Source of the DNA: Anaerolineaceae bacterium
Lineage (GTDB): Bacteria > Chloroflexota > Anaerolineae > Anaerolineales > Anaerolineaceae
Direction of reading: 5' to 3'
DNA length: 64,000 bases
Assembly: GCA_012839565.1 (NCBI GenBank)
Contig: DUMZ01000005.1
Coordinates: forward strand, 1 to 64,000
Positions 12,328-40,039 of the stretch are shown here, piece by piece. The position numbers and the translations under genes were made by a program. Under the pieces are notes generated by a model, which was not told the origin of the DNA, searched no databases, and saw only the letters and a list, made by a program, of their open reading frames with translations. Numbering within the stretch: the stretch's first letter is position 1; the number at the start of each line of letters is the position of its first letter.

Positions 12328-14166
12328 CTATGCGGCAGTAGCAGATGATGCTTGCTCGCCAAAAATGTCGTACTTGCTTTCCAGGTCGTGGCGGAATTGC
12401 TGGGTATATAAATTGTAGTAGTGCCCTTTTAACTTCATCAACGCTTCATGCGTGCCACGTTCCGCGATTTGCCCATGATCAATCACAAATATCTGATCCG
12501 CGCTGCGAATCGTTGAAAGCCTGTGCGCGATAATAAAACTGGTGCGGCCTTCCATGAGCTGATGCATACCACTCTGGATGAGCGACTCGGTAATCGTATC
12601 CACCGAGCTGGTGGCTTCGTCCATCACAAAGAAATCCGGATCCGCCAGCAAGGCACGCGCGATGCTAATCAGTTGCTTTTGCCCAACCGAAAGCAAGTTA
12701 CCGCCCTCACCCACGTTCTGCTCATAACCGTGTTCGAATTTCATAATGAACTCATGCGCGCCTGCCAGCCTGGCAACCGCTTCAATCTCATCATCCGTGG
12801 CTGAAAGACGCCCGTAGCGCAAGTTCTCACGCACTGTGCCAGAAAAGAGATGGGGCGTCTGCAAGACCACACCCACACGCGATTGAATGTCCTTTTGAGC
12901 GTAATCAAGATAGTTATGCCCCGCAATGGAAATCGTTCCGGAAGTCGGCTCGTAGAACCTGCACAAAAGGTTTACAATCGTCGTCTTTCCGCCACCGGTT
13001 GGACCAACCAGCGCGATATTCTGCCCTGCGGGAATGCTGAAGCTCAAATCGCGAATGACCGGCTCGCCATCCTCATAATGGAAGCTGACATTATCAAACA
13101 CTACCTCACCAAGCAAAGAGTCCACCGGTGTTGTGACCGGTTTATCCTGAATGGCAGGTTTGGTTTCAAGCAAACCAAATACGCGCTCAGACGACGCCAC
13201 CGCGTTTTGCATCTCAGCATAAACACGCGCCAGATCCTGGATGGGCCACAGAATCATCATGATGTAAGAAATAAAAGCCTGCAAGCCACCCACAGTGAGG
13301 CTACCCACCACGGGACTGCTAATCATCACTCCACCCCGCCACATCACAACCGCCAGAGAAAGAGCCGAGATGGTTTGGATGGTAGGTAAAAAGATCGCCG
13401 AAAGAAACGCCGCGCGATAGCTGTTGCTGTACATATCATGTGAAAGTACCTTGAAATCAGCCAGGTTACGATCTTCGCGGCGCAAGGCTTTGACCACACG
13501 CACACCCGTGATATTCTCATTCAGCGCGGCGGTCATTTTGGAATTGGCTTTGCGCGACAGGCGATAGTGGTGGTAAATTTTGACTCTGAATTTAAATGCC
13601 ACAAATATTATAAGAGGCAAACTCAGCACAACGATCACAGCCAAACGCGCGTTGATGGTGAACATGAAAAATGAAGCAAAGATAATGTTCGTAATCGCCC
13701 AGGAAACATCAATAATGCCCCAGCTGAGCAGCTCGCCCATGCGTTCGGTGTCGGAAGTGACGCGCGACATAATCCAGCCCAGGGGCGTTTTGCTGAAATA
13801 GCTGAGCGAGAGTTTTTGCAGATGTTTGAAAAGCTTCATGCGCAGTTCATAGCGCAATTTTTCGCCCAGCATACTGGCATTGTATACAAACAGAAAGAAA
13901 CCCGCGCTTGATAACAGCAAAACAGCCATATAGGTTCCCAAAAGGCGGATAAGTACGCCTTTTTCGCCACCGAGTATGCCCTGGTCGATGATGTTTTTGT
14001 CAATGATGGTAAAGTAGGAATCCAAAAAAGAGACAAAAATGATTCCAAACAAACCCAATGCCAGGGATTTCCAGTGGGGTTTAAGCACCGAGAAGAGTCG
14101 CTTCATCACACCTGTCGTGATGTGGACATCATCTTCTAATTCGTTTTCATCATAGTTTTGTGACAC
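12328..14166 (-). CDS. ABC exporter half-transporter, consensus-ATPase partner
   Basis: A 612-residue ABC exporter subunit: six membrane helices in the first 330 residues, then an ATPase domain with Walker A GPTGGGKTT (about residue 390), a signature reading LSVGQ instead of LSGGQ, Walker B FFVMDEATSSVD with the catalytic Glu, and the IIAHRLST switch. I chose GTG 14166, with GAGGAAA just upstream; it overlaps the upstream exporter gene by 17 bases. A longer ATG reading has an implausible N-terminus lying inside the neighbour. Canonical Glu here and Asp in the partner indicate a heterodimer of the TM287/288, BmrCD or LmrCD type. The substrate (drug, lipid or peptide) cannot be told from sequence. 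Confidence 0.93.
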   Translation of the reverse strand: MSQNYDENELEDDVHITTGVMKRLFSVLKPHWKSLALGLFGIIFVSFLDSYFTIIDKNIIDQGILGGEKGVLIRLLGTYMAVLLLSSAGFFLFVYNASMLGEKLRYELRMKLFKHLQKLSLSYFSKTPLGWIMSRVTSDTERMGELLSWGIIDVSWAITNIIFASFFMFTINARLAVIVVLSLPLIIFVAFKFRVKIYHHYRLSRKANSKMTAALNENITGVRVVKALRREDRNLADFKVLSHDMYSNSYRAAFLSAIFLPTIQTISALSLAVVMWRGGVMISSPVVGSLTVGGLQAFISYIMMILWPIQDLARVYAEMQNAVASSERVFGLLETKPAIQDKPVTTPVDSLLGEVVFDNVSFHYEDGEPVIRDLSFSIPAGQNIALVGPTGGGKTTIVNLLCRFYEPTSGTISIAGHNYLDYAQKDIQSRVGVVLQTPHLFSGTVRENLRYGRLSATDDEIEAVARLAGAHEFIMKFEHGYEQNVGEGGNLLSVGQKQLISIARALLADPDFFVMDEATSSVDTITESLIQSGMHQLMEGRTSFIIAHRLSTIRSADQIFVIDHGQIAERGTHEALMKLKGHYYNLYTQQFRHDLESKYDIFGEQASSATAA

Positions 14167-15973
14167 TGTCAATTTCCTCTTGCAACGCGCTCTCAATACG
14201 CGTTTGAATTTCATAGATTTCTTTGTAAATGCCCTCTTGCGCCAAAAGCTCATCATGCGTACCGTGTTGCACCACCTCGCCACGATCAAAGACCAATATT
14301 TGGTCGGCAGTCATGATACTTTGAATACGATGCGCGATGACGAAAGTGGTGCGGTCGGTCATCAGCTTATCCAAAGCGGCGCGGATTTGCACTTCAGTTT
14401 CCATATCCACCGAGCTGGTCGAGTCGTCCAGAATAAGAATGCGTGGGTTGAGCAACAAAGCGCGCGCGATGGCGACACGTTGCTTCTGCCCACCGCTCAA
14501 GGTCACACCCCGCTCACCTACCATGGTGTCATAACCCTCTTTGAACTCGAGAATAACATCATGAATGGCAGCCTCGCGGGCGGCGGCTTCAACTTCTTCC
14601 TGGCTCACCTCACGACGCATCCCATAGGTGATATTATCGCGAATGGAGCATGAAAACAGGAAAGGTTCCTGCTCTACAATGCCAATTTGCGAGCGCAAAT
14701 AATCGCGTGAGTAGTCATTAAGATTGACGCCATCTAACAAAATCCTGCCACTGTTAACATCATAAAAGCGTGGCAAAAGGTTCACCAGCGACGTTTTACC
14801 ACTCCCCGTAGAACCAAGCAACGCGATCACATCGCCAGGTTTACATTCAAAAGAAACATCCTTAAGCACAGGCTGGTTTTCTTCATAGGCAAAGCAGACC
14901 TTTTCGAACCGGATTGCACCCTGGGTGTCGCCTTCAGGCTGATAAACCGCGGTGAAGAGATCTTCTTCTTGCGCTTTCAACACAATCAAAATACGGCCAA
15001 AGGAAACCAACGCCCGCGAAGTGTCAATAATCAAACGTCCCAAACCGCGAATGGGCCAAATCAGCCAGCCTAACAAGCCCTGGAAGGTAATAAACTCGCC
15101 CAGGCTCAAGGTCTGATCAATAACCGCACTCGCTGCAGTGTAAGTGCTAAAAACACGTTGCAAACCGCAAATAATATCCGAGATTGGCCAGAAAATGGAT
15201 TGTAAAAACATCATGCGCTTGCCCCGCTGAAGTTTTTCCATGTTGTTAACAGCAAATTTTTCAGTTTCGTAATCCTGACGCGCGAATGCCTTGACGACAC
15301 GCACACCGCTGAGGGTTTCTTGAAGGTGGGTGGTAATGATGGCTTCCTGTTCCTGGTATTCTTCGTAGGCTTTGCGTAACTTACGGAAGAAAAACATCGA
15401 GATAGCGAGCGTAACAGGCACAATCGCGATTGAAACCCAAGCCAGGCGTGCTTGCATTCGGAAGATGAGCACGAAGTTGATGACGAAAATAAACACGATG
15501 CGCCCCATGCCAATCGCCTGGTCGGCGAAAAATCGGCGCAAGGTGTCCACATCAGATGTAGCACGTTCGAGCAAGTCGCCAGTTTTGGCTTCCGCATGAT
15601 AGGCATAGGTAAGTCGCTGAATGTGATCAAAAAGCTGATCGCGCAAACGGCGCGTCGTATTTTCAGCGGCAAAACTTGCCATCCAGCTACTCATAAAGGT
15701 GCTCAGTGCCTGGAGCATAATCAGCCCTAAAAAAGCCAGGGCGGAGCTGATGATCGCTCCGGCTTGCATACTGTTATCGCGCAGAGCATCAATAAAATTG
15801 CCCAAATGCAGGTAAATGCCAGCCCGCGCGAATGCCGCGATGGCAAGAAACACCGTTGCCACCAGGTAGTTGAAATGATAGCCCTTCATAAGATGCCATA
15901 AACCCAGCATTCTGGGGCTGTTAAGTACTTTTTCTTTATTTAAGCTCTGCTTTTTCTCAGCTGTGCTTTCCAC
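14150..15973 (-). CDS. ABC exporter half-transporter, degenerate-ATPase partner
   Basis: A 607-residue ABC exporter subunit with an N-terminal six-helix domain and a C-terminal ATPase: Walker A GSTGSGKTS, signature LSGGQKQRVAIARAL and Walker B LILDDSTSSVD. The residue after the Walker B Asp is Asp instead of Glu, marking the non-hydrolysing site of heterodimeric exporters. GTG 15973 is chosen because GGAG sits six bases upstream; an in-frame TTG at 15985 is the alternative. The 3' end overlaps the next exporter gene, so the two are translationally coupled. A promoter lies at 16033-16060. Confidence 0.93.
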   Translation of the reverse strand: MESTAEKKQSLNKEKVLNSPRMLGLWHLMKGYHFNYLVATVFLAIAAFARAGIYLHLGNFIDALRDNSMQAGAIISSALAFLGLIMLQALSTFMSSWMASFAAENTTRRLRDQLFDHIQRLTYAYHAEAKTGDLLERATSDVDTLRRFFADQAIGMGRIVFIFVINFVLIFRMQARLAWVSIAIVPVTLAISMFFFRKLRKAYEEYQEQEAIITTHLQETLSGVRVVKAFARQDYETEKFAVNNMEKLQRGKRMMFLQSIFWPISDIICGLQRVFSTYTAASAVIDQTLSLGEFITFQGLLGWLIWPIRGLGRLIIDTSRALVSFGRILIVLKAQEEDLFTAVYQPEGDTQGAIRFEKVCFAYEENQPVLKDVSFECKPGDVIALLGSTGSGKTSLVNLLPRFYDVNSGRILLDGVNLNDYSRDYLRSQIGIVEQEPFLFSCSIRDNITYGMRREVSQEEVEAAAREAAIHDVILEFKEGYDTMVGERGVTLSGGQKQRVAIARALLLNPRILILDDSTSSVDMETEVQIRAALDKLMTDRTTFVIAHRIQSIMTADQILVFDRGEVVQHGTHDELLAQEGIYKEIYEIQTRIESALQEEIDSVTKL

Positions 15974-16032
15974 AAATAACTCCAATTAATCGCGTAGGGG
16001 TGTTAGATAAAAGTCTATACGCCAACCAAAAA

Positions 16033-16060
16033 AGTATACTCTTCTAAGAAGAATAGTCAA
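16033..16060 (-). promoter_or_regulatory. Promoter of the ABC exporter pair with possible operator
   Basis: TTGACT (16055-16060), a 16-bp spacer and TATACT (16033-16038) on the minus strand. The spacer contains the inverted repeat CTTCT-A-AGAAG (16041-16051), a plausible repressor site. Confidence 0.6.
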
Positions 16061-16220
16061 TTGTTATCAACAAATTGTCAAAGCTATGCACAAAATTCAG
16101 TCCCTGCACATGATGATCCCATTCACCTGCTTTCAAAAAAATCTCTTTCAAATTTCCCCATTATTAAAGACTTATTGCCTCAAAATAAAACGAAAGAAAT
16201 AATGAGTAACTTTTTTAGCG

Positions 16221-16226
16221 TATAAT
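16221..16226 (+). promoter_or_regulatory. -10 element for the alpha-oxoamine synthase gene
   Basis: TATAAT about 50 bases before ATG 16276. No clear -35 is seen. AAGGA precedes the ATG. Confidence 0.45.
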
Positions 16227-16275
16227 CGTTCTTAATATATGTAGATCTAGAACAAGGTTATTAAAAAGGATTATT

Positions 16276-17457
16276 ATGGATATTTTCAAGAAATGTTTCG
16301 ATTATCAGGACGTGCGCGTTGCCAAAGCTGCCGGTGTCTACCCCTATTTCCTGCCTCTTGATCGCAACGAAGGCACCGAGATTGTCTATGAAGGCCGCCG
16401 CATCATCATGTGTGGCTCAAACAACTACCTGGGCCTCACCGCCCACCCCCGTGTGAGAGAAGCCGCCATTGAAGCCATCAAAAAATATGGCACCAGTTGC
16501 ACCGGTTCACGCTTTTTGAACGGCAATATGACCATCATCGAAGACCTCGAACGCGACCTGGCAGACTGGGTCGGCATGGATTCCGCCCTGATTTTTTCAA
16601 CCGGTATGCAGGTCAACCTGGGTACGATCAGCGCGTTGGTGGGCAGAGGCGATATCGTTATCCTCGATAAAGAAGACCATGCCAGCATCTATGACGGCGC
16701 GCGCCTGAGCCATGGCAAAATCGAGCGTTTTAGACACAACGACATTGAGCATCTCGAACGGGTGCTAAAAAGCCTGCCCGAACAAGGCGGTCGGCTTCTG
16801 GTGGTGGACGGACTCTTTAGCATGGAAGGCGACATCGCGCCCCTGACTAAAATTATTCCGCTTTGCCAGCAATATGGTGTGCGTTTGATGGTGGATGACG
16901 CGCACGCCATGGGCGTTTTGGGTGGCGGACGTGGCACAGCGGCGCACTTTGGTGTCACCAAAGATGTTGACCTGATCATGTCCACCTTCAGCAAATCATT
17001 CGCCTCGATTGGTGGCTTTGTTGCCGGACAAGCCGATGTGATTGACTACATCAAGCACGTGGCGCGCAGCCTAATTTTCAGTGCCAGTATCCCCCCTGCC
17101 AACGTGGCAACCGCCCATACGGTGCTCAGGATCATGCGCGAGGAACCCTGGCTGGTTGAACAGGTCAACGAAAACGGTCGCTTTATGCGCGAAGGACTGA
17201 CCTCCCTGGGCTTTGATATCGGCACCTCCGAGTCGCCAATTGTGCCAATTATCATTGGTGATGATATGCTCACCTTCAAAACCTGGCGCGATATGTTTGA
17301 TGCTGGCGTGTTTGTCAACCCAGTCATCTCCCCCGCCACCGCGCCCGGTCGCCAACTCTTGCGCACCTCGTATATGGCATCGCACACCCAGTCGCAACTC
17401 GAGCAAGTGCTGGATATCTTTGAAAAAATCGGCAAGCAAAACGGCTTGATTGGTTAA
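16276..17457 (+). CDS. Alpha-oxoamine synthase family PLP enzyme (KBL / BioF / serine palmitoyltransferase-like)
   Basis: A 393-residue fold-type I PLP enzyme of the alpha-oxoamine synthase family, which condenses an amino acid with an acyl-CoA and releases CO2. Visible features are GSNNYLGL near residue 56, GTSCTGSRFLNG near 75, EDHAS (about residue 135, cofactor-stacking His), VDDAHAMGVLG near 209 and STFSKSF with the Schiff-base Lys240. Candidates are glycine C-acetyltransferase, 8-amino-7-oxononanoate synthase, or a serine palmitoyltransferase-like enzyme making sphingoid bases. The N-terminal extension and the MCGSNNYLGL context lean towards the last, but the call is not secure. It is monocistronic with its own promoter and terminator. 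Confidence 0.88.
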   Translation: MDIFKKCFDYQDVRVAKAAGVYPYFLPLDRNEGTEIVYEGRRIIMCGSNNYLGLTAHPRVREAAIEAIKKYGTSCTGSRFLNGNMTIIEDLERDLADWVGMDSALIFSTGMQVNLGTISALVGRGDIVILDKEDHASIYDGARLSHGKIERFRHNDIEHLERVLKSLPEQGGRLLVVDGLFSMEGDIAPLTKIIPLCQQYGVRLMVDDAHAMGVLGGGRGTAAHFGVTKDVDLIMSTFSKSFASIGGFVAGQADVIDYIKHVARSLIFSASIPPANVATAHTVLRIMREEPWLVEQVNENGRFMREGLTSLGFDIGTSESPIVPIIIGDDMLTFKTWRDMFDAGVFVNPVISPATAPGRQLLRTSYMASHTQSQLEQVLDIFEKIGKQNGLIG

Positions 17458-17474
17458 AGTTTTGCTTTTTGATA

Positions 17475-17515
17475 GACACAAAAACACCCCGTTTGGAGTG
17501 TTTTTGTGTCTTTCT
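17475..17515 (+). terminator. Intrinsic terminator after the oxoamine synthase gene
   Basis: Perfect 13-bp arms GACACAAAAACAC / GTGTTTTTGTGTC (17475-17487 and 17498-17510) followed by a T-rich run. Confidence 0.85.
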
Positions 17516-17615
17516 CAATAATAAATAAAGCTCCCAACAAACAGGGTCTAACGTAACAATGTTTCATCACCATTTTTCGCATTTCCACACCCGCTTGTGG
17601 TAAACTATCTGAGTT

Positions 17616-17690
17616 ATGGAAACACAAACAACCATCGGAAGCGAGACCATCTGCTCTGACGATACGCCAGAGCCTGCAAGTATTTGCTAA
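17616..17690 (+). CDS. Candidate leader peptide upstream of the Mg transporter pair
   Basis: A 24-codon ORF, ATG 17616 to TAA 17690, encodes a peptide starting METQTTIGSE with the acidic/proline cluster DDTPEP at residues 15-20. No ribosome site is visible. A -10-like TAAACT at 17601-17606 would make the transcript leaderless or nearly so. The stop lies five bases before one strand of an antiterminator-like stem. In E. coli mgtL an acidic/proline-rich leader peptide destabilises ribosomes at low Mg2+ and opens the downstream transporter gene. That this ORF works the same way is an inference; it may not be translated. Confidence 0.4.
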   Translation: METQTTIGSETICSDDTPEPASIC

Positions 17691-17694
17691 TCCG

Positions 17695-17752
17695 CTGTAA
17701 GCCTCCTTTCCACGGTCGGTTTACAGGGGAATAGCAACCACCGTGGTTTTCT
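17695..17752 (+). promoter_or_regulatory. Mutually exclusive stems: candidate attenuator
   Basis: CTGTAAgCC (17695-17703) can pair with GGtTTACAG (17718-17726). The alternative is CCACGGT-GGTT (17710-17720) pairing with AACC-ACCGTGG (17736-17746), followed by TTTTCTT as in a terminator. The two structures share bases, so only one can form. Confidence 0.5.
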
Positions 17753-17782
17753 TCCACAAATACAACGATTAAGAGGTGACTT

Positions 17783-19048
17783 ATGATTTATTTAAGCAAC
17801 TTGCTAAACCAGAAAGTCTGGGATGCTTTTGGTCATGTCGTCGGCCACGTGGAAGATATCCTCGTCAGCCATACCGACCAGCCCATGCCTCCCATCGATG
17901 CTATCCTGCTCAAACACAGCAAGAGCGAGGTGCGCCTTGTGGATGGTTCGCTCATCGCCACCCTTTGGCCCAGCCTCACACTGAGTGTTGACTTGCGCCA
18001 GCTCAAAGCTTACCAGCCCCATGGACACGAACTTCACCTCAAACAACGCGTCCTCGACCAGCAAATTGTTGACACCGAGGGCAAACGCCTGGTGCGGGTC
18101 AACGATGTGGTTATCGCGCGCAAAAATCAACAGTTTTTGGTAACCGGTGTGGATGTTGGTGTTCGCGGGCTTTTGCGCCGATTGGGTCTGGACACCCCCG
18201 CGAAGTTCCTCGCCAAGACCTTCAAGTTCAAACTCAATAGTCAAATCATCGCCTGGGAAGACGTTGCCAGCATCGAACATGATGACCCTTTACGCCTTAA
18301 AGTATCCCAGGAACGTCTGGTGCAAATGGAGCCCGTGGATATCGCTGCCATTCTTGACAGTTTAGACCACCACACCAGCAAAGCCTTGCTGGAAGGTTTT
18401 GATGATGAAATCCTTGCCGATACCCTCGAACAAAGCTCTTTTGAAGTGCAACAAGCCGTTTTGGCAGCCATGGAACCGGAACGCGCCGCGGACGTGCTTG
18501 AGGAAATGGATCCTGACGAAGCCGCGGACCTTTTGGCGGAACTCGACGACGAACACAGCGAGCAATTGCTGAGCCTGATGGAAGACGAAGACGAAATTGA
18601 GATGCGCCAACTGCTGGCTTACCCCGAAAACAGCGCGGGCGGCATCATGACCACCGAGTTTGCCTGGGTTCCGGGCGAGTTCAACGTGGAGCAAGCCCTC
18701 ACCCACCTGCGCACATCCGAAGAAGCCAAAGAAGATGAGTTTATGTACTATCTCTACATTTTGGACAATGATGAAAAGCTGGAAGGCGTGGTGAGCTTGC
18801 GCGACCTTGTTACCGCACCACTTGATAAGTCTCTACAGGACTGGGCTGATGATGACGTCGTGCATGTTGAACCCCTGACCCACCAAAACGAAACCGCTTA
18901 TTTGGTGGCGAAGTATGATCTCATGGCTATCCCGGTCATTGACCCCGAAAGTCATAAAATGTTGGGCATCGTCACCGTTGACGACGCGCTGGACACCGTC
19001 CTGCCCACCGCATGGAAGAAACGCCTGCCCAGATTCGCAGGAAAATAA
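17783..19048 (+). CDS. MgtE-type cytosolic regulator: PRC-barrel, MgtE N-domain and CBS pair
   Basis: A 421-residue soluble protein with a PRC-barrel-like N-terminal half, a helical MgtE N-domain (about residues 185-290, with repeats such as LEEMDPDEAADLL) and two CBS domains (about 300-405). The MgtE membrane domain is absent. In MgtE the N-domain and CBS pair sense cytosolic Mg2+ and gate the channel. Here the sensor half is separate and is followed 15 bases later by an NRAMP-type transporter, so it probably gates that protein. AGAGGTGA precedes ATG 17783. The leader carries the candidate attenuator described above. Confidence 0.88.
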   Translation: MIYLSNLLNQKVWDAFGHVVGHVEDILVSHTDQPMPPIDAILLKHSKSEVRLVDGSLIATLWPSLTLSVDLRQLKAYQPHGHELHLKQRVLDQQIVDTEGKRLVRVNDVVIARKNQQFLVTGVDVGVRGLLRRLGLDTPAKFLAKTFKFKLNSQIIAWEDVASIEHDDPLRLKVSQERLVQMEPVDIAAILDSLDHHTSKALLEGFDDEILADTLEQSSFEVQQAVLAAMEPERAADVLEEMDPDEAADLLAELDDEHSEQLLSLMEDEDEIEMRQLLAYPENSAGGIMTTEFAWVPGEFNVEQALTHLRTSEEAKEDEFMYYLYILDNDEKLEGVVSLRDLVTAPLDKSLQDWADDDVVHVEPLTHQNETAYLVAKYDLMAIPVIDPESHKMLGIVTVDDALDTVLPTAWKKRLPRFAGK

Positions 19049-19063
19049 CGAAAGGAGCATAAA

Positions 19064-20326
19064 ATGAAGGACACTATCAAGAAAAAACGCCCGGTATGGC
19101 TTAGCAAATTCATTTTCTTGCTCAGCATTCTTGGTCCGGGTTTAATAACCGCCAGTGCAGATAACGACGCACCTGGCATCGCAACCTATTCAGTGGCTGG
19201 CGCGACCTATGGCTACAAACTGATTTGGGTTATCCTCGTGATTACAATCGGCGAAGTGGTCATCCTTGAGATGGCAGCGCGTATGGGTGCGGTCACTGGT
19301 AAAGGCACCGCGGACCTTATTCGCGAACGCTTCGGTGTGAAGATTTCCACCCTGGCCATGTTGCTGTTAATCGTTGCTAACCTTGCCACCACCGTCGCAC
19401 AGTTCGCCGGTGTTGCCGCGGCGGGTGAACTCTTTGGCATCAGTCGCTACATTAGCGTACCGATTGCCGCGGTTGTGATGACTTTTATCGTGCTCAAAGC
19501 GGAATATAAGTATGTCGAGCGTGTGCTTTTGGTTTTGTGTTTGGCGTCGCTCAGTTATGTCGTGGCTGTTTTCACCGTCAAACCCGACTGGGCAGCCATC
19601 GGACAAGCCATCATCCGCCCCCAAATTGAACTTTCGGGAGATTTCCTGGTCACGATGCTGGCTGTCATCGGTACTACCATCACCCCCTGGGCCATTTACT
19701 ACCTGCAAGCCTCGGTAGCTGACCGCGGTGTTGATATGAAAGAATATCGCTACACACGCCTGGATGTCAGCTTTGGTTCTGCCTGGGGCAATGTCATCTC
19801 AGCCTTTATCCTCATCGTTACCGCAGCCACGCTCTATGTGAACGGCGTAGCGGTGAACGACGCCAAAGATGCTGCCCTGGCACTGCAACCTTTGGCTGGG
19901 GAAGCTTCAAGCATTTTGTTCTCGGTTGGGCTCCTGGGCGCGTCGTTGTTGGCTGTCTCGGTTTTGCCCCTGTCAACCACCTACGCCTTTTGCGAAGCAT
20001 ACGGCTTTGAACGCGGGCTCAACCGCAAGGTGAAAGAAGCGCCTGTATTCTATGGCATGCTCATTGCGATTATGGCTATCAGCTCACTGGTGGTACTCAT
20101 TCCAAACGCCCCGCTCTTCCAAATGATGATTCTTTCGCAAACCCTGAACGCCATGCTTTTGCCCGTTTTACTCATCCTGGTACTTAAACTCGCTAACAGC
20201 AAAGAAATTATGGGTAAATACACCAACTCCAAACTGACCAACATCCTGGCGATCGGCATAACGCTATTGATTGTTGTCGTCACCATCGCGCTCTTCTTTG
20301 AGCCATTGTTGAACAAGATATTTTAG
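19064..20326 (+). CDS. NRAMP-related divalent metal transporter, probably Mg2+-type (NRMT)
   Basis: A 420-residue membrane protein of the SLC11/NRAMP family with about 11 helices. The first-helix metal site reads SADNDAPG instead of the usual DPGN. The sixth-helix segment reads TTITPWAIYY where Mn/Fe transporters have an Met-Pro-His motif. Loss of that methionine, which selects for transition metals, is a hallmark of NRAMP-related magnesium transporters such as the one characterised in Clostridium acetobutylicum. The MgtE-domain protein immediately upstream supports Mg2+ as substrate. Annotation as MntH would probably be wrong. AAAGGAG precedes the ATG. Confidence 0.88.
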   Translation: MKDTIKKKRPVWLSKFIFLLSILGPGLITASADNDAPGIATYSVAGATYGYKLIWVILVITIGEVVILEMAARMGAVTGKGTADLIRERFGVKISTLAMLLLIVANLATTVAQFAGVAAAGELFGISRYISVPIAAVVMTFIVLKAEYKYVERVLLVLCLASLSYVVAVFTVKPDWAAIGQAIIRPQIELSGDFLVTMLAVIGTTITPWAIYYLQASVADRGVDMKEYRYTRLDVSFGSAWGNVISAFILIVTAATLYVNGVAVNDAKDAALALQPLAGEASSILFSVGLLGASLLAVSVLPLSTTYAFCEAYGFERGLNRKVKEAPVFYGMLIAIMAISSLVVLIPNAPLFQMMILSQTLNAMLLPVLLILVLKLANSKEIMGKYTNSKLTNILAIGITLLIVVVTIALFFEPLLNKIF

Positions 20327-20345
20327 ACAAGCTGGCTGTAACGAT

Positions 20346-20380
20346 AAATCCCCAGAGTTTCATGCTGGGGATTTGTGTTT
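20346..20380 (+). terminator. Intrinsic terminator after the NRAMP-related gene
   Basis: Perfect 10-bp arms AAATCCCCAG / CTGGGGATTT (20346-20355, 20365-20374) followed by GTGTTTT. Confidence 0.85.
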
Positions 20381-20513
20381 TAAAAAGTAAATAAAACTAA
20401 TTGATGCTCAAAAAAGGATTGTCTGCGAAAAAAGCACTGAATAATTTGTTCTCTTTGTCACTTTTCAGAAATTTTCGTCTTTAATTAAGTGAGGTACCTC
20501 GACAGGAGTGAGA

Positions 20514-21077
20514 ATGCAGTCTGATAAACAAACAGCAGATTCAACAGAAATCAACAGTGAAGAGGAAATAGTATTGTTGGTTAAACAAGATATTAGGAAC
20601 TTTCCTTTGCTCTATGACAGATATGTTGATCAAATTTATAAATACTTTTTATCCAGAGTTCAAAACCGCGAAATCGCTGAAGATTTAACTTCTGAACTGT
20701 TTTTCACTATATTAAAGAACTTTAATAAATATAAGCACAAAGGTTATTTCCGCGCTTGGATGTATAAAATTGCACAAAATCTGTTTTACAGACAATTGCA
20801 AACGCCATCTCAACCTGCCATTGAAGATTTCGAATATGTACCTTCAACAAAATCTCTTCCTGAACAAAATGCTATTGAAAAGGAAAGAATTTCTAAAGTT
20901 CGGCAATTTATCCTGGAGGATTCAGATTTAAATCAAGAAATTTTGAGACTACGCTTCGTTGCGGAATTAAAGTTTTCAGAAATAAGCATGCTTATTGGAA
21001 AATCTGAATCAGCCACAAAAAAGCATTTCTATCGGCTTTTAGAAAGAATAAAGGAATTTGTGGAGAATGAAAAATGA
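20514..21077 (+). CDS. ECF-type RNA polymerase sigma factor
   Basis: A 187-residue sigma factor. Region 2 includes FPLLYDRYVDQIYKYFLSR, the DLTSELFFTILKN segment and FRAWMYKIAQNLF. Region 4 is a helix-turn-helix (LRLRFVAELKFSEISMLIG, then KSESATKKHFYRLL). ATG 20514 has GGAG five bases upstream; an in-frame GTG at 20508 overlaps that site and is less likely. The gene overlaps the next by four bases (ATGA), the usual layout of sigma/anti-sigma pairs. The coding DNA is visibly richer in A and T than the neighbouring genes. Confidence 0.9.
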   Translation: MQSDKQTADSTEINSEEEIVLLVKQDIRNFPLLYDRYVDQIYKYFLSRVQNREIAEDLTSELFFTILKNFNKYKHKGYFRAWMYKIAQNLFYRQLQTPSQPAIEDFEYVPSTKSLPEQNAIEKERISKVRQFILEDSDLNQEILRLRFVAELKFSEISMLIGKSESATKKHFYRLLERIKEFVENEK

Positions 21078-22534
21078 ACACAATTGAAAACATACCATTA
21101 GAAAAAACTATTGCTTTGGCTATGGATGAACCCGTACCAAATAATGGATTCAAATATCGTTTGAGATCAGAGTTAAATTCAGCTGTTTTGAGAAAAAGTA
21201 CACAAGCAAGATTTTTCTCTCTAAAATTAAAACCAGCCTTAATAACTCTGACCGTTGTAGCAGCTATCGCCTTGGTTTTCTTAAATCCGAAAATCGTTAG
21301 TGGCATTCGCGCGTTTCTTTCTTTTATACCAGGCATAGGCATAACACAAACAGAACCTGGCAACTATATCGTTAATCCCCAAGAAGCAACATTAATGGAA
21401 GGCGTCTCTTTTCAGGTCTCTAAAGGTGTCGCTACGGGTCAAAACATTACTTTGCTCCTGGAAGTAAAAGGGCTGACAGAAGAAATGCTCTTCACATCAG
21501 ATGAACACTCCAGATTTCCTGAAGTTGTCTATTCGCTTGAAATCAACCAAGCAAACACATTGGAATTGCAAGAAAAGAGTGCCCGTTGGAATGGTGATTC
21601 AGGCTACGAAATAAAACTTGTTTTTCCAGCAACAGATAAAAACTTAAGTAGAGCAACCTTAAGTTTGAATCACACACCGTTTGCTAATCCTGATTTAAGC
21701 CCAAATAACATTACTATACCGATTGTTTTTAAAGAAATAACTGACCCTGATTTTGCACTACCAGTTATTGATATTCAAACGACCCCATATCTTCCAGCCC
21801 CGTTGACCTATTCAAGCAAGCAAACCGATGAGAATATTCCAGCTTCACCAACACAAATCCGTGAGAAAACACAATTTATCAGTACAGAAGATATGTATTG
21901 CGCGGAAATTCATCACATGATACAAGAACAGGATGGCACAATTCTATTAGGTCGCATATATTGGGCAGATGAATCAGCGAAAATGCCGCGGTTTTCACCT
22001 CTTTCAGTTGAATTGAAAGATGAAAATGGGAATATTATTCAAACAAGCTATTTCAACACACAGGATGATATACCAACAAGCACCGATATGTGGTTGCCAT
22101 GGAGCTTAAAGACTACTCAGCCTTTGGTTAGCGGTAAATATTACCTTGCTTTCAATGGACTAACCGTGCGAGTGTTTACAGATGAAAAAATCGTTTTACC
22201 CGATTCAATCATCTCTAATTCTAAGCAACCTGGAGAATATACACTTGATATCAATATCAATGGGATAAGAATGTCTCTGTCAGAAATCAGTTTTTCAAAA
22301 ACAACTGATGGAAGCCATTTGTCATTCATTGTTCACTCCGACAGTCAAGTAGAAAGTTTGACCTTGTTCCACGAAAAACTAAGAAACATGGATATTTCAC
22401 AAATAGACATAAAAAAATTCACGGTCAATGTAGGCTTTTCAGATGTCATTGATCTCAAAGATGGAAGCCTGGTTATTACAAGCATTGACTTTCATCTAAG
22501 TGAAGCGATACAGCTAGAGTTTTTGATACCCTAA
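21074..22534 (+). CDS. Putative single-pass membrane anti-sigma factor with large extracytoplasmic domain
   Basis: A 486-residue protein with a cytoplasmic segment of about 53 residues, one membrane helix (about 54-72, LKPALITLTVVAAIALVFL) and an outer domain of about 400 residues containing beta-rich DUF4179-like sequence. It is coupled to the ECF sigma gene by a 4-base overlap, so an anti-sigma role is the simplest reading. No classical zinc anti-sigma motif is visible, so this rests on gene order and topology. Like the sigma gene it is A/T-rich compared with its surroundings. Confidence 0.7.
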   Translation: MNTIENIPLEKTIALAMDEPVPNNGFKYRLRSELNSAVLRKSTQARFFSLKLKPALITLTVVAAIALVFLNPKIVSGIRAFLSFIPGIGITQTEPGNYIVNPQEATLMEGVSFQVSKGVATGQNITLLLEVKGLTEEMLFTSDEHSRFPEVVYSLEINQANTLELQEKSARWNGDSGYEIKLVFPATDKNLSRATLSLNHTPFANPDLSPNNITIPIVFKEITDPDFALPVIDIQTTPYLPAPLTYSSKQTDENIPASPTQIREKTQFISTEDMYCAEIHHMIQEQDGTILLGRIYWADESAKMPRFSPLSVELKDENGNIIQTSYFNTQDDIPTSTDMWLPWSLKTTQPLVSGKYYLAFNGLTVRVFTDEKIVLPDSIISNSKQPGEYTLDININGIRMSLSEISFSKTTDGSHLSFIVHSDSQVESLTLFHEKLRNMDISQIDIKKFTVNVGFSDVIDLKDGSLVITSIDFHLSEAIQLEFLIP

Positions 22535-22560
22535 GAAAAGTTTGTCATAAGTATAAGCAG

Positions 22561-22604
22561 GTGAAGCAAACGATTTGTACAAGAGATTTGCTTCACTTGC
22601 ACTT
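22561..22604. terminator. Bidirectional terminator-like hairpin
   Basis: Perfect 10-bp arms GTGAAGCAAA / TTTGCTTCAC (22561-22570, 22587-22596) around TTGTACAA, with a T run on the plus side. It lies between the convergent anti-sigma and cobU genes. Confidence 0.6.
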
Positions 22605-22605
22605 T

Positions 22606-23157
22606 TTACAGTTCTTTGATTACCATCGGAATGCCCGCCACCATAAAGACAACTTTTGTGGCGACTTTTGCCAGGCGTTGATTAGCCCGCCCTAACTCAT
22701 CACGATAGTAACGCGAAAGCGCGTTGGGTGGCACAAGCCCCAAACCAACTTCGTTGGAGATAAGCATCCAGCTCGCGTCCTGCTTGTGCCAGGCATCAAT
22801 CAAAGCCTCAATCTCTGCCTGCATCGCATTTTGATAATCCATCTCAACAACGGGTTCCGGCAAGCTAAACAAAACATTGCTCGCCAGCATGGTAACACAA
22901 TCCAGCAAAACCCAGCCCTGCGGCCTGGCTGCTACAATCGCCTGTCCCACATTCAGCTGAGCTTCAAGCGTTTGCCAGTGCGCGGGTCGGCTGGCACGGT
23001 GTTTTTGAATGCGACTGCGCATTTCTTCATCGCCCGCGGTAGCCGTCGCCACAAAAAGCACGTCCCGCGTGCAGGTTTCAAGCTGACTTTGCGCCCAGTC
23101 CGATTTTCCACTGCGCGCGCCACCCAGCACCAATACCAGCTCTTTTTTCGCGCTCAT
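22606..23157 (-). CDS. cobU: Adenosylcobinamide kinase / adenosylcobinamide-phosphate guanylyltransferase
   Basis: A 183-residue bifunctional CobU/CobP enzyme. It phosphorylates adenosylcobinamide with NTP, then transfers GMP to give AdoCbi-GDP. The P-loop GGARSGKSDWAQ is near residue 12. HRASRPAHWQT contains the His that carries GMP. LDCVTMLASN and ISNEVGLGLVPPNALSRYYRDELGRANQ are family landmarks. ATG 23157 is chosen over 23208 because AGGGG precedes it and the longer reading runs into cbiR. It is the last gene of cobT-cobS-cbiR-cobU. Confidence 0.95.
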   Translation of the reverse strand: MSAKKELVLVLGGARSGKSDWAQSQLETCTRDVLFVATATAGDEEMRSRIQKHRASRPAHWQTLEAQLNVGQAIVAARPQGWVLLDCVTMLASNVLFSLPEPVVEMDYQNAMQAEIEALIDAWHKQDASWMLISNEVGLGLVPPNALSRYYRDELGRANQRLAKVATKVVFMVAGIPMVIKEL

Positions 23158-23158
23158 T

Positions 23159-24016
23159 TCAGCCCCTGCTTTCGTAAAGGTCGCGGTGATACTTGGCGGG
23201 TTTGGCACTTTCGCCTGATTGCGCCTGCCAGCTAAGCCCCAGTTGTGCCAAAGCGAGATTGAGCTGCGTTAACGAACCGCTAAAATCTTCTTCATTGAAA
23301 ACTTCTATTGTCATCACGCCATCAAAACCCGACTGATGAATAACAGTTAATACGCGCTTGAGCTCTTCAAGCGGCACATGTCTTAAGGACTTATGGTCAC
23401 GCTCCGCCACGCCATGAATATGCAAAACCCTGGCGCGGTGAATATGTTTTTCGAGATAGGCCACCGCGTCGTGCCCTTCAAGCCAGAGATGTCCGATATC
23501 AATGCAGCGGCTAAACGTATTTCCCTCAAAAACATCATCGATAAAATCAACTGGATAATTATCAAGGTTCTCAATTGCCAAAAGGTGTGGTTCGCCAACC
23601 CATTCGCTCAGCTGATTGAGCGAGAGTTCAGCCTTTTTCAGCCAATCCGCCTTGCTCTGTTTGCCCGCCAAACGCTCGCGCCCTTCAAGGTGCAAAACGT
23701 AAGCCCAGGGTTCCAGTCCCAGGGTGCAGTCAATCGCCTTTTTGGCTTTTATAAAGGATACATCGCGCAAGCCGGCATCTTCAGCCAGATTCAAATCCAG
23801 GGGCAAATGCACGGTATAGGTCATGCCATTCTGCTGTGCCAGCGATGCCAGTGCCGCCTGTTGTGCGGGGGTCAGCAAGTTACTCGGCCCATCATCTACC
23901 TCGAACAGAACAAGCTCAATGTCATCTGTCTTGCCACCCAAATAACGCACGTTGGGGATAATATCATCCGGAATAATATATGATGTCGTTCCAATTCGAA
24001 AATTAATATTCTCCAT
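23159..24016 (-). CDS. cbiR: CbiR-like cobamide-remodelling phosphodiesterase
   Basis: A 285-residue TIM-barrel protein of the AP-endonuclease-2 / xylose-isomerase-like superfamily with the metal-site motifs HLPLDLNL, VLHLEG, LLAIENLDN, CIDIGHLWLEG and VLHIHG. CbiR, characterised in Akkermansia muciniphila, hydrolyses the nucleotide-loop phosphodiester of imported cobamides so that a new lower base can be installed. Placement between cobS and cobU, in an operon also carrying cobT, fits that role well. The name rests on context plus fold; a generic sugar isomerase is the less likely alternative. The stop lies one base before the cobU ATG. Confidence 0.83.
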   Translation of the reverse strand: MENINFRIGTTSYIIPDDIIPNVRYLGGKTDDIELVLFEVDDGPSNLLTPAQQAALASLAQQNGMTYTVHLPLDLNLAEDAGLRDVSFIKAKKAIDCTLGLEPWAYVLHLEGRERLAGKQSKADWLKKAELSLNQLSEWVGEPHLLAIENLDNYPVDFIDDVFEGNTFSRCIDIGHLWLEGHDAVAYLEKHIHRARVLHIHGVAERDHKSLRHVPLEELKRVLTVIHQSGFDGVMTIEVFNEEDFSGSLTQLNLALAQLGLSWQAQSGESAKPAKYHRDLYESRG

Positions 24017-29482: not shown

Positions 29483-29522
29483 CGACCACCTCCTTAATCC
29501 GAGAAGGCTGAATTGGGTCTTA

Positions 29523-29637
29523 GATCAAAGCAGGTCATCTGGCTTGCCAATAAGGCTTACAGTTGCGGTACAGCGCTGGACTCTCACCAGCTTCCACCTT
29601 TACGCCCACGCATCCGGGCATTCGGGCTTCTTTGATC
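29523..29637 (-). ncRNA. Cobalamin riboswitch (B12 box)
   Basis: On the minus strand the 8-bp closing helix CTTTGATC-type (GATCAAAG 29630-29637 with CTTTGATC 29523-29530) encloses the conserved aptamer core: GGTGGAAGCTGGTGAGAGTC, then CCGCAACTGTAAGCC, then AAGCCAGATGACCTGC. These match the B12-box consensus. The element lies between a strong promoter and btuF, followed by a terminator, so bound adenosylcobalamin should switch the uptake operon off. Confidence 0.95.
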
Positions 29638-29653
29638 ATTTTTCGTTGCACTC

Positions 29654-39815: not shown

Positions 39816-39848
39816 GCGCTATGTGATTTTATAAGTTCACATAGCGCT
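39816..39848 (-). terminator. Expression-platform hairpin of the lysine riboswitch
   Basis: On the minus strand AGCGCTATGTGA pairs with TCACATAGCGCT across about ten bases, then TTGTTACTT. It resembles a weak terminator between aptamer and kal. It could equally be a translation or stability element. Confidence 0.55.
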
Positions 39849-39861
39849 CCATGTTCACACA

Positions 39862-40003
39862 TGACAGTGGCACGTTCTTAGACCGGCACACCAAGGTCGA
39901 AGAGAGGACTCTCTTTTGACCCTTCGGCGACGGATAATTCGATTCTTCCCTCAGTCCTGAAGCACACAAAGTTTCTACGCGATCCGCCGCGCCTCTATTG
40001 AGT
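39862..40003 (-). ncRNA. Lysine riboswitch (L box) ahead of the lysine fermentation operon
   Basis: Minus-strand landmarks of the lysine aptamer appear in order: ATAGAGGCGCGG, GGGAAGA, CGTCGCCGAAGG, CCTTGGTGTGCCGG and GTGCCACTGTCA, with intervening helices such as GGTC/GACC. They match the lysine riboswitch core. The P1 closing helix is not obvious by eye. Lysine riboswitches usually repress biosynthesis and transport genes. Here the target is a catabolic operon, so an ON switch is expected, by inference. Confidence 0.9.
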
Positions 40004-40039
40004 TTAAATTGTAAATTAACTCTTAACGAGTCGTTTACC

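Follow-up and report, generated by a model that had tools for sequence, protein, structure and literature searches.

A candidate mgtL-like leader-peptide attenuator of independent origin in front of a magnesium uptake operon in Anaerolineae

How might the expression of a magnesium uptake operon follow the availability of Mg2+, if a short peptide rather than a metal-binding RNA precedes the operon? This question is raised by a small open reading frame that overlaps competing RNA stems in the window, the stretch of 64,000 nucleotides from an Anaerolineaceae bacterium (Chloroflexota) that has been analysed here, with features on the forward strand unless indicated otherwise. The precedent for a logic based on ribosome destabilisation is mgtL of mgtA in E. 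coli and Salmonella (PMC11282234, PMC11552253), and the mgtM, mgtP, mgtQ and corL leader ORFs equally control Mg transport genes in Salmonella/E. coli (PMC3641672, PMC8092293, PMC11552253). According to the literature searched, sensing of Mg2+ by ribosome stability was previously known only from such enterobacterial leaders (mgtL, mgtQ and possibly corL), and a published account of such leaders in Chloroflexota was not found in the open-access literature (subscription papers lay mostly outside this scope). We consider it probable that the leader in the window is a ribosome-controlled transcription attenuator which senses Mg2+ via the stability of the translating ribosome.

The first gene of the downstream operon (17783–19048) codes for a soluble PRC-barrel/MgtE_N/CBS protein, the cytosolic Mg-sensing module of MgtE without the channel (Pfam matches: MgtE_N 3.2e-23, CBS 2.4e-12 and PRC 8.8e-7). 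The second gene (19064–20326) codes for a predicted NRAMP-related Mg2+ transporter (NRMT), assigned by structure match and binding site. The preliminary description had placed the attenuator before an NRAMP-type transporter; the transporter is indeed part of the operon, but the MgtE_N-CBS gene comes first. The best solved relative of the NRAMP protein is the Mg transporter of Eggerthella lenta (7qia; 340 bits vs 105 for the next chain). In the published binding-site criteria for NRMTs, Asn and Met mark the transition-metal NRAMPs (PMC8806188). In the alignment, Asn is exchanged for Gly and Met for Thr/Ala in 9/9 sequences, and with NDAPG and GTTITPW the window protein itself appears to possess an NRMT site, in which the Asp is kept, the Asn of helix 1 is replaced by Gly and the Met of helix 6 is lost. 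Of the 84 loci of over 2.5 kb, 79 have the PRC-MgtE_N-CBS gene next to the NRAMP gene, as do most of those from other phyla, and the MgtE_N/NRMT pair occurs also in Coriobacteriia, relatives of Geobacter, Acidobacteria, Clostridia and others. A CorA or MgtE channel was not found in the genome of the window, which is 95.6% complete. Ribosomal protein bL31, which counters ribosome destabilisation and drop-off in E. coli, is present in this genome. As a separate observation, the gene directly 5' of the MgtE_N gene in L038–L041, L097 and L105 has a CorA-like end (..FFKKINWL before the stop), and some genomes thus seem to group CorA with the MgtE_N/NRMT pair. Further along the window, Rfam gathering matches identify a cobalamin riboswitch (29512–29644, reverse strand) and a lysine riboswitch (39834–40005, reverse strand).

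Upstream of this operon, the leader ORF of 24 codons (METQTTIGSETICSDDTPEPASIC; 17616–17690, with start ATG at 17616 and stop TAA at 17688–17690) contains the DDTPEP codons (codons 15–20; 17658–17675), a putative ribosome-destabilising motif conserved across the genus in a D[DE]xPxP-like form. A putative extended -10 promoter element (TGGTAAACT; 17598–17606) can be read in front of it, with the transcript start predicted just a few bases 5' of the leader ATG, and TATAAT or TATACT is located approximately 25–45 nt 5' of the leader ATG in most congeners. In the comparison of the genus, the leader ORF is kept before the same operon in all 28 of the 28 congeners that hold the gene. These leaders are 24–36 amino acids long and variable in sequence, with the acidic positions around the motif maintained via exchange of Asp and Glu. 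Columns 11, 18 and 3 are acidic in 28/28, 27/28 and 27/28 congeners, respectively, with swapping of D and E (in column 18, the codons are GAT 11, GAC 10, GAA 5 and GAG 1), the acidic codons differ at their third position, and Pro22 is invariant (28/28) although encoded by all four Pro codons. The overall pN/pS of 0.60 is modest because RNA structure overlaps the ORF, which is expected to leave little synonymous freedom. An upstream acidic ORF, defined by an ATG start and at least four acidic residues among the first 20, is present in 96% of congeners compared with 35% of unselected other loci of the class, 3.9% of shuffled sequences and 0% in other phyla, where 64 loci with the same gene were searched. 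By computation, the acidic character of the leader is thus under selection, and the conservation at the codon level suggests that the leader is translated.

A leader peptide combined with competing stems around its stop codon has the layout of a classical attenuator, and Asp, Ser and Pro are enriched in the leader, as might be expected if the leader responded to scarcity of tRNAs charged with Asp, Glu, Ser or Pro. Such classical amino-acid attenuation is nevertheless very unlikely, as a run of a single codon is missing and the targets are Mg transporters rather than amino-acid genes. Moreover, a tRNA sensor would forbid precisely the interchange of Asp and Glu which is observed at the conserved columns.

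The leader ORF is followed by a terminator-like hairpin, CCACGGT(23)ACCGTGG and then TTTTCTT (17710–17753; -13.4 kcal/mol), with its arms at 17710–17716 and 17740–17746 and the T-run at 17747–17753. The ORF with DDTPEP, the hairpin and the T-run are all present where the preliminary description had located them, whereas the gap between the leader stop and CTGTAA comprises four bases (TCCG) and not five. The stem in which CTGTAA was proposed to compete with the hairpin does exist, but is larger than described. In the minimum free energy fold, an antiterminator 5' arm (TTGCTA, TCC and CTGTAAGCC; 17684–17703, with CTGTAAGCC at 17695–17703) spans the leader stop codon and pairs with a 3' arm inside the loop of the terminator hairpin (GGTTTACAG, GGA and TAGCAA; 17718–17737, with GGTTTACAG at 17718–17726). 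Positions 17684–17689 thereby pair also with 17732–17737, and the stem straddles the stop codon. This antiterminator stem (17684–17703/17718–17737) excludes the hairpin (17710–17746). A long-range helix P1 (17637–17755) joins 17637–17650, the codons from Gly-Ser-Glu onward, with 17743–17755, the end of the hairpin plus the T-run, and a similar pairing, GGAAGYGA...CTTCC, is readable in most congeners. The first gene of the operon has its Shine-Dalgarno (SD) sequence, AAGAGG, at 17771–17776. A standard promoter and terminator scan of the window leader gave no call, the terminator being missed owing to the 23-nt loop of the hairpin and the interrupted T-run.

The fold of the leader RNA is very stable compared with shuffled sequences (z -4.66; 0/200 as stable), and P1 as well as stretches such as CCTGCAAGT are conserved in the genus. 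These features might point to a new Mg2+-binding riboswitch, with the ORF being secondary. However, an Rfam search of the leader relaxed to E <= 10 returned chance-level matches only, and the third positions of the acidic codons are free to vary. Across the class, a nucleotide motif common to the leaders was not found, whereas the acidic leader and the stop-centred antiterminator are common. In addition, a true M-box is a separate element that can lie 5' of an acidic leader, and a novel riboswitch is therefore extremely improbable. A covariance match to the M-box (RF00380) was found neither at positions 14000–24000 of the window at E <= 10 nor in its own genome nor in the genus; the match to an M-box or another metal riboswitch over the leader region that the preliminary description had considered thus did not appear. 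A Mn (yybP-ykoY) riboswitch, suggested by the string GGGGAAUAGC, has been dropped, as Rfam support was absent and the string is not conserved.

In the proposed attenuator, a ribosome at ample Mg2+ would traverse the acidic/proline stretch and arrive at the stop codon, where it would mask the antiterminator 5' arm, the terminator hairpin would form and the Mg-uptake operon would be off. At scarce Mg2+, the ribosome would drop off (or halt) on the acidic/proline stretch; the free RNA of the stop region would pair with the terminator loop and 3' half, and RNA polymerase would read into the MgtE_N-CBS and NRMT genes. This sequence of events has been modelled with the leader stop and terminator placed in 57 loci and a ribosome-stepping analysis on 54 loci, whereby folding is treated as an equilibrium and the ribosome as a crude mask (the P-site codon plus 12 nt). 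The pairing probability of the window hairpin is 0.00 with the leader free and 0.97 with the ribosome at the stop, compared with 0.78 in shuffled leaders. In most of the genus, the terminator probability equally changes from about 0.00 to about 0.97, and the means for 37 loci outside the genus are 0.59 with the leader free, 0.92 with the ribosome at the stop and 0.88 in shuffled leaders. A modelled ribosome at or before the acidic motif leads to antitermination and beyond the motif to termination. In the window, the switch is located at codon 22, just after DDTPEP, where the terminator probability rises from 0.0 to about 1.0. The behaviour expected from the preliminary description, termination upon completion of the leader and read-through upon failure at the motif, is seen in 40 of the 54 loci including the window, and 14 of the 54 have no switch at equilibrium. 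Among the 40 switching loci, the density of acidic residues is 0.233 before the switch and 0.065 after it (3.6-fold; 0/5000 residue shuffles), and three loci with an earlier switch at codons 9–13 (L108, L112, L115) likewise carry their acidic residues at the very start. Termination at the window hairpin itself would be the predicted outcome.

Covariation around the stop codon argues in the same direction. The complementarity between leader end and terminator is specific for each locus (0/5000 permutations; 0/20000 with one locus per genus) and limited to a 25-nt segment between stop-15 and stop+10 (z -7.0, compared with -0.6 to -2.5 for other segments), which is exactly the stretch under a terminating ribosome. 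Conservation of ORF and stems in relatives had been set beforehand as a check on the locus, and both are conserved, with covariation.

The last step of the switch might be of a different nature, with the ORF and stems acting on translation initiation by SD masking or on Rho-dependent termination rather than on an intrinsic terminator. In support, a segment located after the leader stop and before the terminator matches the SD of its own operon in a locus-specific manner (0/20000), with examples in L031 (CACTTCTTGTTGG with CCAACAAGAGGTG), L067, L069, L086 and L093. On its own, this anti-SD element would reduce the translation of the read-through RNA, an effect outside what the attenuator model accounts for. 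The U-tract is weak in the window and absent in several congeners (among them L014, L016, L017, L026, L044 and L049), so that a Rho-dependent or translational last step may be used there. Furthermore, one genus has MgtE leaders in which the SD is folded into a hairpin rather than placed behind a terminator, and E. coli mgtL operates via Rho (PMC11282234). On the other hand, strong intrinsic terminators with T-runs are present in nearly all loci outside the genus. SD masking as the main switch has been rejected and retained only as a second element, since the modelled SD accessibility tracks the ribosome position in no consistent direction. As an explanation for the whole system, control of translation initiation or of Rho is thus decidedly unlikely compared with attenuation at an intrinsic terminator. 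A CCCTGG/CCAGGG alternative stem considered for the MgtE leaders of one genus is disfavoured at equilibrium.

Beyond the genus, acidic leaders occur in at least 10 further families of the class Anaerolineae, with peptide sequences differing from the genus type. The leaders of the class are often acidic directly after the start, similar to MgtL (MDEDNSSS, MEEDDSSN, METDSSNS, MDADGSK, MKEENNLDLDPDP), with the acidic motif at codons 2–5 in many of the class's other families versus codons 15–20 in the window genus; another leader of the class possesses a mid-peptide acidic stretch, DSDSPADPD. Pro-Pro-stop is found at the end of the leaders of L085, L086, L087, L089, L091 and L094, and the leaders of several families end in or adjoin such a sequence (VDPP, HPP, TPP, GPP and PPQH before the stop; also L080, L082 and L083). 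It could prolong the stay of the ribosome at the stop codon and may sharpen termination.

Two other types of leader have been observed before the same genes. In the genus g39 (L053–L059, L061, L065), a longer conserved leader ORF, M.LEET..SKDVPPLS.., precedes the same gene with a terminator present; this leader is of a proline-proline and not of an acidic-proline type. In Eggerthellales and relatives (L131–L160), a micro-ORF, MKVRKxKPHSx followed by the stop, lies approximately 70–190 nt 5' of the MgtE_N gene of the same Mg operon. With a TTG or GTG start and a GAAAGG SD, it is basic and not acidic, and might possibly represent an arrest peptide.

The M-box, which switches genes off at high Mg2+, precedes the same MgtE_N/NRMT operon in Clostridium muellerianum (L185), Actinomycetota (L172, L190) and Geobacter (L163) and, within the class of the window, in L129, L050, L121, L124, L101, L109 and L219. 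Evolution therefore treats this operon as one that is switched off by Mg2+. In L222 (585–1110) and L220 (606–1090), both types of element are present in the order M-box, terminator, acidic leader with a strong SD, second terminator and MgtE_N gene, and the corresponding region of L219 and L221 was noted alongside them. The leader of L222 starts with MDDDSHKQ.., and the leader of L219–L221 is apparently AUA-initiated (GGAGGTGATCGCYATAGACGCGGATCAC). Equally, acidic/proline leaders precede full-length MgtE genes (PF01769) in the same family (MEEQQTPGDRDPEPDSCKPIN, MDALQTPGDRDPEPDKRSINS, MQEELALDPDPRRSF, MNDDDLAGDRYF), with MgtE leaders in other genera of the family in L234, L237, L238, L240 and L243–L247 and motifs such as DPEPD and DPDPRR. 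As MgtE is a Mg channel structurally unrelated to NRMT, Mg2+ is what the two gene families share. Mg2+ would consequently be the signal, because the transporter has an NRMT-type site, the genome lacks a CorA or MgtE channel, M-boxes precede the same operon elsewhere and acidic leaders precede MgtE; the NRMT site, the MgtE_N-CBS domains, the M-boxes and the MgtE leaders also bear out the earlier view that the downstream genes are Mg-related.

The same RNA switch might instead respond to general elongation stress, with ribosomes stalling at the acidic/proline codons due to a shortage of EF-P or an EttA-type ABC-F protein, to another cation or to polyamines. In the model, a stall at or before the motif yields the same antitermination as drop-off, EttA modulates the translation of acidic sequences including MgtL in E. 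coli (PMC11282234), and PP or PPx adjoins the leader stop in several families. The operon, however, is one for Mg uptake that carries an M-box elsewhere, and a second, unrelated family of Mg transporters equally resides behind acidic leaders. A signal other than Mg2+ is thus unlikely, and ribosome drop-off at scarce Mg2+ is the event which we would favour.

As such, the proposed Mg2+-responsive attenuator resembles mgtL in several aspects. A short acidic/proline ORF (EPDP in MgtL) precedes a Mg2+ importer, the acidic residues precede the switch point of the RNA, and efficient translation would mean off, while failure at the motif would free the competing stem and mean on. The differences concern the phylum, Chloroflexota, the transporters (NRMT and MgtE here vs the P-type MgtA), the intrinsic terminator in most relatives versus Rho in mgtL, the location of the motif at codons 15–20 in the window genus and the overlap of the antiterminator arm with the stop codon. 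Common descent with enterobacterial mgtL is not indicated, as the downstream genes are others, the leaders vary among the families of the class and a relation in sequence was not seen. The suggestion of the preliminary description, that the same logic arose in a distant phylum on a different transporter family, therefore appears to hold for sequences that would work like mgtL without being homologous to it. The best reading is an mgtL-like attenuator of independent origin with a mostly intrinsic terminator. The mgtM, mgtP, mgtQ and corL leaders share proline or acidic codons and alternative stems; the mgtCBR leaders, however, respond to charging of tRNA-Pro and to ATP, mgtQ acts on translation, and none of these is found in Chloroflexota. 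Clostridium, Geobacter, Actinomycetota and a part of the Chloroflexota have the M-box (ykoK, RF00380) before the PRC-MgtE_N/NRMT operon that the leader also precedes, but the M-box is a direct RNA aptamer without a peptide. A Mg-linked leader in which an M-box is accompanied by a conserved small ORF, rv1805A, has been described before pe20 in M. tuberculosis (PMC12810186). In contrast to the leaders discussed here, this uORF is specific for mycobacteria, and an acidic leader with a competing terminator has not been described for it.

Across the class, the evidence leans towards an independent recruitment of ribosome destabilisation by acidic nascent chains as a Mg2+ sensor in Chloroflexota, on two unrelated transporter families and with intrinsic terminators, which in some lineages would act in series with the M-box or replace it, so that two physically different sensors control one operon. 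If this is true, the weakness of the ribosome on acidic nascent chains would be a general gauge for Mg2+ that is open to evolution. Lineages in which an acidic leader has taken the place of the M-box, together with the tandem arrangements, would provide matched pairs for comparing a peptide sensor with an RNA aptamer in front of one operon, and dozens of natural leader peptides would constitute a library for the definition of ribosome-destabilising sequences.
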